Source of the DNA: an uncultured Croceitalea sp.
Lineage (GTDB): Bacteria > Bacteroidota > Bacteroidia > Flavobacteriales > Flavobacteriaceae
Direction of reading: 5' to 3'
Length of the DNA stretch: 64,000 nt
Assembly: GCA_947503285.1 (NCBI GenBank)
Contig: CANNDD010000008.1
Coordinates: 62,001 to 126,000 of the forward strand
Shown piece after piece: positions 24,135 through 29,170 of this stretch (its first letter is position 1; the number at the start of each line of letters is the position of its first letter). Under the pieces are notes generated by a model that did not search any database, was not told the DNA's origin, and saw nothing but the letters and a program-made list of their open reading frames with translations. Position numbers and translations under genes: made by a program.

Positions 24135-24209
24135 AACATTGTAGTTTCCGTTCATGTTCCCCATTTTGCCGCTTACCATATTTCCATATCTATAGATTGA
24201 AGTGGTTCA

Positions 24210-24217
24210 TATATTTG
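24210..24217 (+). promoter_or_regulatory. -7 promoter box of the S9 peptidase gene
   Basis: TATATTTG fits TAnnTTTG exactly. It is 80 bases before the ATG at 24298, which leaves a fairly long leader with a short GTTAC/GTAAC inverted repeat. Confidence 0.45.
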
Positions 24218-24297: not shown

Positions 24298-26607
24298 ATG
24301 AAATCGAAAACAAAGTATGTACTACTATCACTGACCTTATTATTTGTGGGGGTTATAGGATATGCCCAGGATATTGCCGGCTCTTGGAAGGGAACTTTGG
24401 CAGTTCAAGGAATGGAAATGCCACTAATCTTCAATGTCACAAACGATAATGGGATATTGAAGTCAACAATGGACAGCCCTTCTCAAGGCGCAACTGACAT
24501 ACCCATGGATGAAACCCTATTTGCCGAAAATGAATTGACCATTGTTTTCAAACAGGCAGGTATAAAATATGTGGGTAGCCTGAAGGATGAAACTATAACC
24601 GGTACGTTTTATCAAGGGGGAATGGAATTGCCCTTGAATTTAATGAAAACGATAAAGACCAAACCAGGAAATACCGAATTACCAAGCTCAGAAGAAGAAT
24701 TAACTGCTTTGGCAAACCTAGATCAAGGTGATTATCGATATACGGTCGAAGATTACTTTGCCAAACCAAAAGCATCAACATTTAGGTTTTCACCCGATGG
24801 TACTTATATGTCTTACCGAGAAAAAGATGAAAACGGAAAACGACATATCTATGTAAAGAACATAAGCTCGAATACTACGACACGGGCCATTGAGGAAAAA
24901 GATGAACTGGTTCGTGGATATGGATGGATAAATAATGAACGCTTGGTTTATTTGATGGATAGTGGAGGTGATGAAAATTATCACGTTTATGCCGTCAACC
25001 TTGATGGAACCGAATTAAAAGATCTGACCCCATTTGATGGCGTACAGGCCCAATTTTCTGACTTATTGAAAGAAGATAAAGACCATATCATTGTTCAGAT
25101 GAACAAAAACAATCCTCAGGTATTTGAACCCTTTAAAGTGAATGTGCGCACAGGGCAGTTAGAACAATTATACACCAATGAAGATGCCGCTAACCCAATT
25201 ACCGCCTATAATTTTGACAAAGACGGCAATTTAAAGGGATTTACAAAAATAAGGGATGGTGTCGAGCAAGATTTGTATTACGAAGATGGTGAAGGTGGTT
25301 TTAAGGTCATCAAGAACCTTAATTGGAAGGATGCCTTTGGTATTTTGACCTTTGATTACGCTACAGACTACCCCCATGATGCCTATATGGTTTCAAACTT
25401 AAACAGTGACAAGGCCAAGATCATTCGTTACGATTTAAAAGAAAATAAACAGCTTGAAGAGATTTTTAGTAACGATAGTTTTGACGTTGCCGACATGTAC
25501 CTTTCTAGAATGCGCGGGTATGAACTCGATTATGTCTCTTATGAGGGTGAGAAGAATGTAATAGTTCCAATCAGCGAATCTTATAAAAAATTACATGAGC
25601 GAATAGTGACCCAATTTCCAAACGAACAATATAGTATTGCTGACGCTACCGATGATGAGAATAACCTACTCATTTTTCTGCAAAGTGACCGATTGTATGG
25701 AGCGTACCATTCTTACGATGTCAAAAAAGATGAATTTAAGTTTTTATACAGTCTTATGCCACAACTTAAAGAAGAAGATATGTCGGAAATGCGACCTATC
25801 ACCTTTACAAGCAGGGACGGACTTACTATTCACGGTTACATTACATTGCCAAAAGCAGCAATAGCTGGAGAGAAAGTTCCGGTAATCGTAAACCCCCATG
25901 GTGGCCCACAGGGTATTCGAGATTCTTGGGGCTTTAACCCAGAGGCGCAATTGTTCGCAAGTAGGGGTTATGCCACATTACAGGTTAATTTTAGGATTTC
26001 AGGAGGCTACGGAAAAGAGTTTTTAGAGTCGGGTTTCAAACAAATAGGCAGAAAGGCCATGGACGATGTTGAAGATGGTTTGCAATACGTGATCGATCAG
26101 GGTTGGGTAGATGCAAAAAAAGCGGCGATCTATGGTGGTAGCCACGGTGGTTATGCTGTTTTAAGAGGACTGACCAAAACTCCGGATCTATATGCCTGTG
26201 GGGTAGATTACGTTGGGGTTTCCAATCTTTTTACTTTTATGAAGACCATTCCACCGTATTGGAAACCTTATTTAAAGATTCTAAAAGAAATCTGGTATGA
26301 TGAAGCAGTCGCCGAAGAAAAGAAGATTATGGAGGAAGTTTCACCGGTATATCAGATAGATAAGATCAAAAAACCCCTATTCGTTGTGCAAGGGGCAAAT
26401 GACCCAAGGGTGAATATCGATGAATCAGACCAGATTGTAAGTGCATTAAGGGACAAAGGCTTTGAGGTGCCCTATATGGTAAAATATGATGAAGGACATG
26501 GTTTTGCAAAAGAAGAAAATTCCATTGCCCTTTATAAAGCCATGATGGGCTTTTATGCCAAGCACTTGGGTAAAGATAATATTACGGAACAACCCCTCAA
26601 GGACTAA
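24298..26607 (+). CDS. S9 family prolyl oligopeptidase-like peptidase (secreted)
   Basis: Secreted serine peptidase of 769 aa with a signal peptide ending near GVIGYAQ. Residues 25-120 form a small beta domain (AGSWKGTLAVQGMEMPLIFNV) often fused to S9 enzymes in Bacteroidota. A WD40-like propeller (about 150-480) precedes the alpha/beta-hydrolase domain. The triad is visible: Ser in YGGSHGGYAV near 614, Asp in QGANDPRVN near 701, His in EGHGFAKEEN near 732. It likely trims peptides in the periplasm. It ends in a strong terminator and is monocistronic. Confidence 0.92.
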   Translation: MKSKTKYVLLSLTLLFVGVIGYAQDIAGSWKGTLAVQGMEMPLIFNVTNDNGILKSTMDSPSQGATDIPMDETLFAENELTIVFKQAGIKYVGSLKDETITGTFYQGGMELPLNLMKTIKTKPGNTELPSSEEELTALANLDQGDYRYTVEDYFAKPKASTFRFSPDGTYMSYREKDENGKRHIYVKNISSNTTTRAIEEKDELVRGYGWINNERLVYLMDSGGDENYHVYAVNLDGTELKDLTPFDGVQAQFSDLLKEDKDHIIVQMNKNNPQVFEPFKVNVRTGQLEQLYTNEDAANPITAYNFDKDGNLKGFTKIRDGVEQDLYYEDGEGGFKVIKNLNWKDAFGILTFDYATDYPHDAYMVSNLNSDKAKIIRYDLKENKQLEEIFSNDSFDVADMYLSRMRGYELDYVSYEGEKNVIVPISESYKKLHERIVTQFPNEQYSIADATDDENNLLIFLQSDRLYGAYHSYDVKKDEFKFLYSLMPQLKEEDMSEMRPITFTSRDGLTIHGYITLPKAAIAGEKVPVIVNPHGGPQGIRDSWGFNPEAQLFASRGYATLQVNFRISGGYGKEFLESGFKQIGRKAMDDVEDGLQYVIDQGWVDAKKAAIYGGSHGGYAVLRGLTKTPDLYACGVDYVGVSNLFTFMKTIPPYWKPYLKILKEIWYDEAVAEEKKIMEEVSPVYQIDKIKKPLFVVQGANDPRVNIDESDQIVSALRDKGFEVPYMVKYDEGHGFAKEENSIALYKAMMGFYAKHLGKDNITEQPLKD

Positions 26608-26631: not shown

Positions 26632-26657
26632 AAAAGGGGACTAGTGTCCCCTTTTTT
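26632..26657 (+). terminator. Intrinsic terminator of the S9 peptidase gene
   Basis: Perfect 10-bp stem AAAAGGGGAC / GTCCCCTTTT (26632-26641, 26646-26655) with a TAGT loop and a T-run, 25 bases past the stop. Confidence 0.92.
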
Positions 26658-26690
26658 AATGCCCGAAAATCAGTTGGGTAAAGTTTCACT

Positions 26691-26720
26691 ACCGTTCGGT
26701 AAGCTTGGTTTACCGTTGGT
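26691..26720 (+). promoter_or_regulatory. Predicted LytTR-family operator (direct repeat)
   Basis: ACCGTTCGG (26691-26699) and ACCGTTGGT (26712-26720) both fit the published LytTR site consensus [TA][AC][CA]GTTN[AG][TG] at every position. They are separated by 12 bp, the known spacing of two helical turns. The second repeat ends about 33 bases before a -7 box at 26754. The operon that follows encodes a LytTR response regulator, so this is probably its autoregulatory site. Confidence 0.72.
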
Positions 26721-26753: not shown

Positions 26754-26761
26754 TATATTTG
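26754..26761 (+). promoter_or_regulatory. -7 promoter box of the LytTR operon
   Basis: TATATTTG fits TAnnTTTG exactly. It has no good -33 TTG at the usual spacing (TTTC is there), which is consistent with an activator-dependent promoter using the repeats just upstream. Confidence 0.55.
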
Positions 26762-26795: not shown

Positions 26796-26849
26796 ATGAT
26801 AGCACTGGTAAAATTAGTAGTATCACTTGTATTGAGCATTTTAATTTAA
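26796..26849 (+). CDS. Possible 17-aa hydrophobic leader peptide
   Basis: A complete short frame (ATG 26796, TAA 26847-26849) in the leader of the LytTR operon encodes MIALVKLVVSLVLSILI, wholly hydrophobic apart from one Lys. It lies about 35 bases after the -7 box and 27 bases before the next gene. It could be a small membrane peptide, a leader peptide, or chance. No ribosome binding site is evident, which says little in this phylum. Confidence 0.3.
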   Translation: MIALVKLVVSLVLSILI

Positions 26850-26876: not shown

Positions 26877-27074
26877 ATGAAAAATTTAGAAAACATCAAA
26901 CAAATTGTATTCATCATCGGATTTATTGCCCTATTGGTAGGGGTATTTGGCGCAATTGCCAACAAAGACTTAATGAGTTATTTTTTCCCTATCTATACTG
27001 GGCTTACCCTAATGGGAACGGCTTTGCTTCATAAGGCGCCAAAAGGGATAGCTGAATTTAAAATAAATGCCTAA
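26877..27074 (+). CDS. Small two-helix membrane protein
   Basis: A 65-aa protein with two hydrophobic segments (IVFIIGFIALLVGVFGAIA and YFFPIYTGLTLMGTALL) joined by a short charged loop (NKDLMS). No family recognised. It is the first annotated gene of a four-gene rightward operon that ends in a histidine kinase and a LytTR regulator, and is probably functionally tied to that pair. Twelve bases separate it from the next gene. Confidence 0.7.
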   Translation: MKNLENIKQIVFIIGFIALLVGVFGAIANKDLMSYFFPIYTGLTLMGTALLHKAPKGIAEFKINA

Positions 27075-27086
27075 GCCTGCAGATTT

Positions 27087-27371
27087 ATGAAACTAAGCAA
27101 AAGAAATGCGCTTTATAGTGCAGGGGGAATTTTATTGACCGCTGCATTGATTTCACAGTTTAAAGATGCTGATTTGATTTTGGCGACTCTGCTAGTCCTG
27201 TCGGCCGCAATATTATTGTTTCAGGGTTTTAGGGAAGATGCAAAAGATACCAAATGTGATACTGGCTTTAGCAGCAAGGCCAAGATACTAAAGGTTACTT
27301 TGGGTGTGGTAGTGGTATTCTTTGGTCTTGGGTTTTCAGTAGGCAAACTTATTTATCTTTGGTCGCATTAA
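27087..27371 (+). CDS. Small membrane protein
   Basis: A 94-aa protein with three hydrophobic segments: near 10-22 (YSAGGILLTAALIS), 30-48 (LILATLLVLSAAILLFQG) and 71-90 (VTLGVVVVFFGLGFSVGKLIYL). A basic N-terminus and a charged middle loop (REDAKDTKCD) separate the helices. No family recognised. It lies 18 bases before the histidine kinase gene. Like the preceding gene it may be a sensor partner or target of the kinase. Confidence 0.68.
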   Translation: MKLSKRNALYSAGGILLTAALISQFKDADLILATLLVLSAAILLFQGFREDAKDTKCDTGFSSKAKILKVTLGVVVVFFGLGFSVGKLIYLWSH

Positions 27372-27389: not shown

Positions 27390-28448
27390 ATGAATCTTAC
27401 CGTTAAAAGAAGAAACCTCATATTTTGGATACTTCAAATCTGTGGTTGGGGATTTTTGAATCTAACATCCATTCTTTTTCTGAAAAAGTTAGGATTACAA
27501 TTCGTGATTTTTTCACTGGTAACCGGCCTTCTAATAGGTATTGGGTCATCAACACTTCTGAGGTATTACCTCAGGGCAAAAGTCAGTCTTGAGAATTTTG
27601 ATTTAAGACAGTTTCTCAAAATTGTGTTAGCTACCATCGTGGCTTCGGCAATTTATGGTTTTCTAAGCTATTTTATTGGACGTGCCTATGGAAAGTTCGG
27701 ACCTGAAATCTCAGAAACCGAAAAAGAAATACTGAAAGCCTTTGATAATATTTGGATATTGGTTTTCAACTCTATATTCATAATGATTTGCTGGGTTATT
27801 TGTTACCTGGTGATAAAACTACTACTAAAAGCAAATCAGAATAGAATAGAACGCTTAGAGCTGAATACGAGTTTAAAACAGGCCCAATTAAACACGTTGA
27901 AGGGGCAGATAAACCCTCATTTTATGTTCAATAGTCTGAACAATATCAGGGGACTCATGCTTGAAGATGTCAATCGCTCAAGGGAGATGTTGACCAAACT
28001 CTCAGAAATATTACGTTATTCATTGACCAAGAACAACGCGAATGCCATTGCAGTCGAAGAAGAGTTGGATATGGTGGATAACTACATTGCACTTTCAAAA
28101 ATTCAGTTTGAAAACAGACTTCAATTTGAAAGAACGATAGAAGACAACTGTCTTTCGCTTCAGATTCCACCAATGATCATACAGCTGTTGGTTGAGAATG
28201 CAATGAAACACGGTATCTCAAATTTAAAGGAAGGTGGAAAAATAGTCTTGGAAATCAGAAAGAAAGAAGATAAACTTCAACTGTGCGTCACGAATACGGG
28301 AAAACTCCGGATTTCAAAAGATTCGACACAATTGGGGCTGAAGAATATTCGCCAAAGATTGCATTTACTTTACGGAGATAAAGCTGAGTTCACATTGAAC
28401 GAGATAGAACATGAGGTCGTGGCTAATATCAAAATTCCGTTGACATGA
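27390..28448 (+). CDS. LytS-type sensor histidine kinase (His_kinase family)
   Basis: A 352-aa membrane kinase. Four hydrophobic segments fill the first 150 residues with no extracytoplasmic domain, so it senses within or near the membrane. A short coiled linker (NRIERLELNTSLKQAQLNTL) leads to the phosphoacceptor box QINPHFMFNSLNNIRGL (His near 176). The ATPase half has VENAMKHGI (N box, near 269) and LGLKNIRQRL. This is the 5TM-less LytS/YehU architecture. The stop overlaps the regulator start by 4 bases (ATGA). Confidence 0.93.
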   Translation: MNLTVKRRNLIFWILQICGWGFLNLTSILFLKKLGLQFVIFSLVTGLLIGIGSSTLLRYYLRAKVSLENFDLRQFLKIVLATIVASAIYGFLSYFIGRAYGKFGPEISETEKEILKAFDNIWILVFNSIFIMICWVICYLVIKLLLKANQNRIERLELNTSLKQAQLNTLKGQINPHFMFNSLNNIRGLMLEDVNRSREMLTKLSEILRYSLTKNNANAIAVEEELDMVDNYIALSKIQFENRLQFERTIEDNCLSLQIPPMIIQLLVENAMKHGISNLKEGGKIVLEIRKKEDKLQLCVTNTGKLRISKDSTQLGLKNIRQRLHLLYGDKAEFTLNEIEHEVVANIKIPLT

Positions 28449-29170
28449 AAATAAGGGCAGTTATTGTAGAAGATTCACGTTTGGCTCGCAACGAGTTGAA
28501 AGAATTGCTCAAGAACCATGACGATATCACGCTCATAGGGGAGGCTGAAAATGTGGATTTGGGTTTTAACCTCATTCAAAAAGAACAGCCGGATTTACTG
28601 TTTTTGGATATCAATATGCCTGAAAAAGATGGTTTTGAGCTTTTGGAAATGTTAGATGAAGTACCCATAACCATATTTACGACGGCATTTGACGAATATG
28701 CAATCAAATCGTTTGAGTATAATGCCTTAGATTATCTTTTAAAGCCTATCAATGCGAAACGTTTCGCGTTGGCAATCGATAAAGTAAAATCGATATTGAA
28801 TGAGGAAGAGACTACATCAGAAGTAAAAAATCAATTAACAGAAAAAAGTCAAATTTTCATTAAGGATGGAGAACAATGTTGGTTAGTGAAAATCGGGTCT
28901 ATTTCCCATTTTGAGATTGTTGGTAATTATACCCGTGTGCATTTTGAAGATCATAAACCGTTGTTGTACAAATCACTGAATCAAATAGAGGAAAAGCTTC
29001 CTGAGCAATCGTTTTTTAGGGTAAACCGACAACAAATCGTCAATATTAACCATATACAGAATGTTGTTCCCTGGTTCAATGGTAAATTGAAACTGACTAT
29101 GCTAAATGGCTGTGAGGTCGAGGTATCTCGAAGACAATCGTATTTGTTCAAAGATAGGATGAGTATTTAG
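28445..29170 (+). CDS. LytTR-family response regulator
   Basis: A 241-aa regulator. The receiver domain (1-120) has VIVEDSRLARNEL, the phosphoacceptor Asp55 in LLFLDINMPEKDGF, the switch Thr in IFTTAFDEYA, and the conserved Lys in LLKPI. The C-terminal LytTR DNA-binding domain (about 136-238) shows IFIKDGEQCWLV, ISHFEIVGNYTRVHF, LNQIEEKLPEQSFFRVNRQQIVN and LTMLNGCEVEVSRRQ. LytTR proteins bind two direct repeats about 21 bp apart; such a pair lies at 26691-26720 before this operon. The phosphodonor is the kinase encoded next to it. Confidence 0.95.
   Translation: MKIRAVIVEDSRLARNELKELLKNHDDITLIGEAENVDLGFNLIQKEQPDLLFLDINMPEKDGFELLEMLDEVPITIFTTAFDEYAIKSFEYNALDYLLKPINAKRFALAIDKVKSILNEEETTSEVKNQLTEKSQIFIKDGEQCWLVKIGSISHFEIVGNYTRVHFEDHKPLLYKSLNQIEEKLPEQSFFRVNRQQIVNINHIQNVVPWFNGKLKLTMLNGCEVEVSRRQSYLFKDRMSI

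Follow-up and report, generated by a model that had tools for sequence, protein, structure and literature searches.

The stretch of DNA analysed as a whole (64,000 nucleotides, hereafter the window) belongs to a genome of 4.34 Mb with 34 LytTR matches genome-wide, and carries a pair of short repeats upstream of a two-component operon, all the features of the window given below being located on the forward strand. Box 1 (ACCGTTCGG, 26691..26699), whose position is kept in relatives, and box 2 (ACCGTTGGT, 26712..26720), which is followed directly by CATAA, can be read from the sequence, as can the -7 box TATATTTG at 26754..26761. Both repeats were confirmed where the earlier note had reported them, each agreeing with [TA][AC][CA]GTTN[AG][TG] at nine of nine positions and the two being separated by a gap of 12 bp (21-bp phase). 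The -7 box was likewise found downstream of the repeats, while the reported distance of 34 bases turned out to be the coordinate difference, and 33 nt intervene between the end of box 2 and the -7 box. LytTR-type operators are described, in part of the text of PMC4847170, as two repeats of 9-11 nt with 11-13 bp between them, and the 12-bp gap was found in the window as well as at the sites scored in relatives, where the phase is imposed by the scoring matrix itself. A third, upstream box (TCAGTTGGG, 26670..26678), obtained by pattern search, shares the 21-bp phase with boxes 1 and 2; its counterpart in relatives is degenerate, TCA[A/G][C/T]T[C/G]GG, and is recognisable in five of the eight orthologous loci. 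Reading by eye, a terminator-like hairpin with a T-run was seen at 26636..26657, 3' of a peptidase gene, and no -33 element was seen in the window promoter.

Downstream of the promoter, the operon with a histidine kinase and a LytTR regulator that the earlier note had described was found as reported, except that its start has to be moved upstream, as a 17-codon open reading frame at 26796-26849 (ATG...TAA), located after the promoter and ahead of the first listed ORF, precedes the other genes. This unannotated gene encodes a membrane peptide, MIALVKLVVSLVLSILI, with a GRAVY value of 2.79. It is followed by genes for a 65-residue small membrane protein (26877..27074) and a 94-residue small membrane protein (27087..27371) with the C-terminal end GFSVGKLIYLWSH, both without Pfam match; small membrane proteins with the G-GKLIY-type ending of the latter were also observed by regular expression in 17 of the 80 relatives. 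The last two genes encode a LytS-like sensor kinase (27390..28448, Pfam His_kinase PF06580) and a response regulator (28445..29170, Response_reg and LytTR by Pfam) which is the presumed binder of the boxes. The kinase has a membrane-embedded N-terminus, with three segments above the hydropathy cut-off and a fourth near the start recognised by eye, and the PF06580 kinase directly adjoins the receiver-LytTR regulator, with Pfam scores above cut-off, in the manner of LytS/LytTR two-component systems. The nearest NCBIfam model to the regulator is BtsR (NF008677), for which it scores 166.9 bits in comparison to a curated cut-off of 246, and the nearest solved chains are mostly receiver domains.

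Several side observations concern the kinase genes of other genomes. Tandem kinase genes, two before one regulator, were seen at loci L034-L037, L084, L091, L093, L094 and L098-L100. At L084, L098 and L100 extra predicted operators are located upstream of the kinase genes, 5' of genes for secreted ankyrin-like proteins, an identity that was tested by Pfam for L084 only, and at L084 and L098 extra predicted operators also precede 45-46-residue membrane proteins. For Flavobacterium johnsoniae, every one of the five lines of a table in PMC10197871 has a hit in a LytTR regulator gene or in a kinase gene with an adjacent tag number.

The earlier note had pointed to the match of both repeats to the consensus, which by itself carries little weight. 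Genome-wide, the consensus pair occurs seven times in 4.34 Mb in comparison to eight times for a reversed control pattern, and two of the seven are overlapping pairs at the place of the boxes themselves; the textbook consensus was thus rejected as proof of an operator, since its frequency is at chance level. The refuting outcome named in the earlier note, a loss of the repeats in close relatives that keep the operon, did not occur. The full pair is kept in six of eight orthologous operons when counted at most 280 bp from the first small gene; at a further orthologous locus (L039) the textbook consensus recognises one box and the family pattern recognises both, and at another (L037) box pairs are located further upstream. 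Conservation, rather than the consensus match, is in our judgement decisive for regarding the predicted operator as more than a chance occurrence.

To score sites in relatives, a matrix trained on 53 sites of relatives, with the window left out, was applied with a threshold of 12 bits to the best 80 of 577 confirmed regulator candidates. The results showed 118 sites above 12 bits in 78 of the 80 loci, and the two loci with no site (L053 and L091) are interrupted by contig ends. In the whole 64-kb window, on both strands, only two sites exceed 8 bits, one of 39.3 bits and the pair of boxes 1 and 2 at 26691-26720 with 32.2 bits, in comparison to a maximum of 9.8 bits in the reversed window. TAnnTT begins exactly 33 nt past box 2 at 112 of these sites, in a stretch which lay outside the matrix coverage, with the next best offset reaching 6; the remaining six sites lack TAnnTT at this offset. 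The boxes are thus located just 5' of a -7 element at almost all scored sites.

The form of the boxes themselves differs from the textbook. Family box 1 is mostly [ATG]CCG[CT]T[CT] and box 2 mostly [AG]CC[AG][CT]TN[AG][TC]CATA[AT], part of which was fixed by the training regular expression, and CATA follows box 2 directly in all 53 training sites, for which the selecting expression demanded CAT[AC]. Box 2 of relatives often begins ACC[AG]CT, and in the Allomuricauda relatives box 2 is frequently ACCACTGGTCATAAT, so the strict GTT core is not the conserved feature. Judged across these sites, the conserved motif is a Flavobacteriaceae version and not the textbook consensus, and the box pair most likely is what it looks like, a real and widely conserved on-switch of the regulator's own operon.

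The same collection of sites bears on whether the boxes could instead be palindromes bound by a dimeric repressor of an unrelated kind. The stretch TTACCGTTCGGTAA in the window, with one flanking base beyond, is nearly palindromic, and box 1 shows dyad symmetry within the genus of the window, but across the 118 sites box 1 has the form ACC-3-GGT in none and ACC-4-GGT in 10, and box 2 has the form ACC-3-GGT in 25. What is conserved instead is the direct repeat, the distance to the -7 box and the accompanying LytTR regulator. The palindromic reading was rejected because the dyad symmetry is not conserved across these sites, and we consider it highly improbable.

A LytTR operator at this place could also serve for repression, so that the regulator would switch off its own operon. 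The site would be conserved under autoregulation of either sign and a fixed position is possible for a repressor too, but the boxes stop 33 nt short of the -7 element, with no overlap, at 112 of the 118 sites, no -33 element was seen by eye, as would be expected of an activator-dependent promoter, and a LytTR operon of similar arrangement is activated according to part of the text of PMC6193735. Negative autoregulation is accordingly regarded as unlikely, and activation is favoured because the distance to the -7 box is fixed and the boxes lie off the -7 element. If a -35 hexamer is assumed at a 17-bp spacer, about 10 bp would separate it from the boxes, and such a distance, together with a 12-bp gap between the repeats, is the commonest arrangement in autoregulated LytTR operons of many prokaryotes, as reported in the same part of PMC6193735. 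Binding by the regulator, and activation rather than repression, are inferred, the latter from this arrangement of sequence elements.

The site of 39.3 bits, the top matrix site of the window, is a second pair of boxes (24147-24176) which had been missed in the earlier note. Its box 1 (TCCGTTCAT, 24147..24155) and box 2 (GCCGCTTAC, 24168..24176, followed by CATA) were recognised by both the matrix and the family pattern, and the -7 box of this second promoter, again TATATTTG (24210..24217), follows with the same 33-nt gap as at the operon. The predicted second target is a peptidase of the prolyl-oligopeptidase family (S9) with a signal-peptide-like start, encoded at 24298..26607. With zero mismatches, the pattern CCGYT-N16-CCRYTNRYCATA matches these two promoters only in the genome, in comparison to none in the control, and with one mismatch there are two further matches in the genome in comparison to four in the control. 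The restriction to two promoters applies within the reach of the pattern, and weaker sites may exist. Among relatives, the peptidase has a tblastn match in 34 loci, one of which (L130) matches the N-terminal part only, and a site is located at most 420 bp upstream of the match in 25 of the 34, with no site above threshold before it in the other nine. As a separate observation, the N-terminal stretch of the peptidase (from 24298; S/HW-G-L...DSP-Q-A) resembles sequences at L207 and L130; in predicted operator targets this stretch is joined to differing alpha/beta-hydrolase domains, and the Pfam matches leave it uncovered.

The genome contains many candidates for the protein that binds the boxes, its 34 LytTR matches being the reason to consider that the main binder is another LytTR-domain protein. 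The exact pattern was found in nine of nine genomes whose regulator is at least 75% identical (the genome of the window included) in comparison to two of the 50 remaining genomes (Fisher p = 4e-9, kinship not corrected), and among 19 pattern places in those genomes 14 are at the regulator locus and five elsewhere, with three in the control. For 32 of the genome's 33 other LytTR genes (locus C1:829890 was left out), the best score in the upstream stretches was 3.8 bits on the coding strand. As the pattern tracks the orthologues of this regulator and was not seen upstream of those 32 genes, another LytTR protein as the main binder is improbable, and the co-occurrence points to the regulator encoded at 28445..29170 as the presumed binder.

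The possibility that the architecture is shared across the LytTR operons of the genome was also considered and rejected, as no pair in 21-bp phase followed at 33 nt by TAnnTTTG stood out in the 32 of 33 upstream stretches. A scan at six of nine identities at the other LytTR loci gave 45 pairs at phase 21 in comparison to 11 to 32 at phases 19, 20, 22 and 23; none of these has the 33-nt distance and therefore no inference was drawn from the excess. Inspection by eye of the DNA 5' of the distant paralogues L041-L043 gave no sign of a site.

The reach of the pattern was explored at several levels of stringency. A scan of the family with the fixed -7 distance and at most one mismatch gave 66 matches, spread over 45 of the 397 genomes, in comparison to three in the control. 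Thirty of these matches were inspected by eye, of which 15 are located before a microORF, 10 before a gene for a hydrolase-type protein or for a protein that shares the peptidase N-terminus and three before an ankyrin-like or small-protein gene, while two are chance-like. Pfam applied to selected targets of relatives identified alpha/beta-hydrolase and S9 families, a GldB-like lipoprotein and ankyrin repeats, as well as a beta-lactamase-fold protein behind a microORF. A stricter pattern with at most three mismatches was found in five of 299 family genomes, with none in the control, and the matches of a looser two-mismatch pattern were at control level. In a phylum sample of 148 genomes, matches were found in the genome of the window, in G190 of the same family and in G537 from outside it; the 133 phylum genomes outside Flavobacteriaceae thus gave one match in comparison to two in the control, which is not above chance.

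A similar microORF of 17 to 24 residues is located downstream of a predicted operator in 65 of the 80 relatives (66 with the window). Five further loci (L071, L087, L091, L098 and L099) have the microORF with no scored operator directly before it, for a total of 70 of 80, and it was not found in the other 10, among which L053 ends at a contig edge; ORFs retrieved by a loose regular expression in L105, L121 and L124 seemed unrelated and were excluded, and another ORF in L121 was counted. The microORF persists in relatives whose other small genes are missing or replaced. In 31 close pairs, the differences at the three codon positions were 59, 11 and 153, and the codons with a single change gave 133 synonymous changes in comparison to 56 expected and 46 replacement changes in comparison to 123 expected, the close pairs sharing sequences and the ORFs having been selected by length and composition and not by codon position. 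The flanks, taken at fixed offsets and unaligned, gave 14-30 synonymous changes in comparison to 22.8-33.0 expected. The pattern of substitution indicates that the microORF evolves as a coding sequence under protein-level selection, and the microprotein is probably translated and probably has a role of its own.

These data also bear on whether the 17-codon ORF is simply a leader for attenuation or translational coupling, as might be suggested by its shortness and its place as the first ORF in the predicted transcript. A functional peptide explains better why residues are kept while third positions vary, why the length is exactly 17 in 42 of the 66 microproteins with Lys6 present in 42 of 42, and why the genes downstream of the microORF vary among relatives. 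A similar ORF, moreover, stands alone behind another sensor system, and there is little chance that the ORF is only a leader.

That second system was found through the peptide-start pattern, which occurs at five places in the genome of the window. On the minus strand of contig C5, at about 233,174-233,236 (loci L139 and L245), a 20-residue peptide, MIALVKFVVTLVLSLIAIAI, is encoded 371 nt 3' of a Penicillinase_R (98.9 bits) and Peptidase_M56 (41.8 bits, cut-off 31) gene pair, with a 110-residue ORF overlapping it in a different frame. No operator was predicted at this peptide (best score -33.0 bits) and no LytTR match is located nearby. Five genomes of the same genus have peptides such as MIAIVKFIVLVFMSIVGLFI, 370 to 377 nt 3' of the same kind of gene and with the same phosphoribosyltransferase-like gene beyond the peptide, and one of the five has a second copy of the peptide further on. 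These same-genus peptides were chosen from pattern matches, for which control counts were similar genome by genome; the peptide pattern alone proves nothing because of these controls, and it is the shared neighbourhood that carries the evidence. The 23 further pattern loci that were translated have mostly other lengths. Five more places were selected by eye. At three of them (L281-L283) ORFs of 16 to 23 residues share the strand of an M56 match and are located at most about 2.5 kb past its last matched part; the other two (L284 and L285) have no M56 neighbour. A block GGAAACATGAT..TTATCA was also observed about 60 nt 5' of the M56-associated peptide in most copies.

Several roles can be considered for the peptide. 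As it is encoded 5' of the kinase-regulator pair in 70 of the 80 relatives, even in those with differing small genes, it could serve the adjacent kinase specifically, as an intramembrane modulator that closes a feedback loop. The similar peptide of the same genome is encoded with no LytTR gene or predicted operator nearby, which speaks against such a dedicated role, and we regard it as fairly unlikely. MgrB and SafA are small membrane proteins that act on sensor kinases and are targets of signalling networks. Like them, the peptide of the window is a very small membrane protein whose gene is a predicted target of a signalling network; it differs from them in that, at 17 residues, it is shorter and that a similar peptide is found behind an unrelated sensor. 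Type I toxin-antitoxin systems encode small hydrophobic toxins, which the peptide resembles in its length and hydrophobicity (GRAVY 2.79), so that a self-limiting, membrane-active peptide is conceivable; the peptide is, however, tied to signalling operons, and a toxin-like function seems rather doubtful. The peptide is more likely an output than a private ligand of the kinase, because a similar peptide is found behind an unrelated membrane sensor. The association of two unrelated kinds of sensor with a tiny membrane peptide suggests, as a hypothesis, an output that acts on the envelope.

In general, we have good confidence in a LytTR regulator that acts through the boxes as an activator of its own operon and of the adjacent gene for the secreted S9 peptidase, with the peptide most likely as an envelope output. 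Signals perceived by the membrane-embedded kinase would lead to phosphorylation of the regulator, and the phosphorylated regulator would bind the two boxes, which are two helical turns apart. From its fixed place 33 nt 5' of the -7 box, the bound regulator would recruit RNA polymerase to its own promoter, a positive autoregulation, and would likewise recruit it to the promoter of the peptidase gene. The operon would then supply the 17-residue membrane peptide first, next the two small membrane proteins and finally the kinase and its regulator, and the peptide would most likely act on the envelope or the membrane proteins in it. The proposal of the earlier note that the repeats are an operator for autoregulation is thus supported by their conservation together with the regulator, and is changed in the version of the motif, in the sign of the regulation, which is predicted to be activation, and in the targets, to which the peptidase and the microprotein are added.

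Comparison with known systems shows both likenesses and differences. The kinase and regulator are of the same kinds, a LytS-type kinase and a LytTR regulator, as in BtsS/BtsR and YpdA/YpdB of E. coli, and the BtsR box is ACC[GA]CT[CT]A with a 21-bp phase, which box 2 of the relatives resembles. YpdB binds a direct repeat (part of PMC4847170), and the known targets of the BtsR and YpdB systems include a CstA-like transporter and a putative antiporter (part of PMC5552118), in comparison to the regulator's own operon and a secreted peptidase as predicted here for a regulator that scores below the BtsR cut-off. HdrRM and BrsRM of Streptococcus mutans and its relatives are alike in having a LytTR operon, direct repeats mostly 12 bp apart and a membrane protein. 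According to part of the text of PMC6193735, from which this likeness is drawn, the repeats are biased to 10 bp 5' of the -35 across prokaryotes and to 4-11 bp in S. mutans, and positive feedback has been shown for hdrRM of S. mutans. In contrast to HdrRM and BrsRM, the system of the window has a kinase and a receiver domain, a TAnnTTTG-type -7 box and a differing box sequence. In some relatives, L036 among them, the core of AlgR sites of Pseudomonas aeruginosa, CCGTTCGTC, coincides with part of box 2, and AlgR sites, unlike the pair in the window, need not be direct repeats 12 bp apart (part of PMC4064291).

Among the matches listed in literature searches made mostly without subscription journals, no mapped LytTR operator in Bacteroidota was found, nor anything on the locus, the peptidase or the peptide. 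The LytTR kind of operator is already known, and what is new is the combination of the predicted operator with microprotein and hydrolase targets. We tentatively propose, as a conjecture with a reasonable prospect of being right, that the peptides of about 16-24 residues and of the form M-[IV]-x-[LI]-[AV]-K-hydrophobic are a new membrane microprotein family of Flavobacteriaceae, unannotated only through shortness, which would be a common output of two unrelated kinds of envelope-sensing system, namely LytS/LytTR systems, which would be autoactivating and would also switch on secreted serine hydrolases, and M56/penicillinase-repressor (BlaR1/BlaI-like) pairs. In a genome rich in LytTR proteins, the locus supplies a precise predicted operator, promoters of fixed geometry and a regulon that is predicted to comprise two of them. 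It also illustrates that a conserved gene heading an obvious operon can escape annotation at 17 codons, and that peptides of this kind are encoded again behind another type of membrane sensor.
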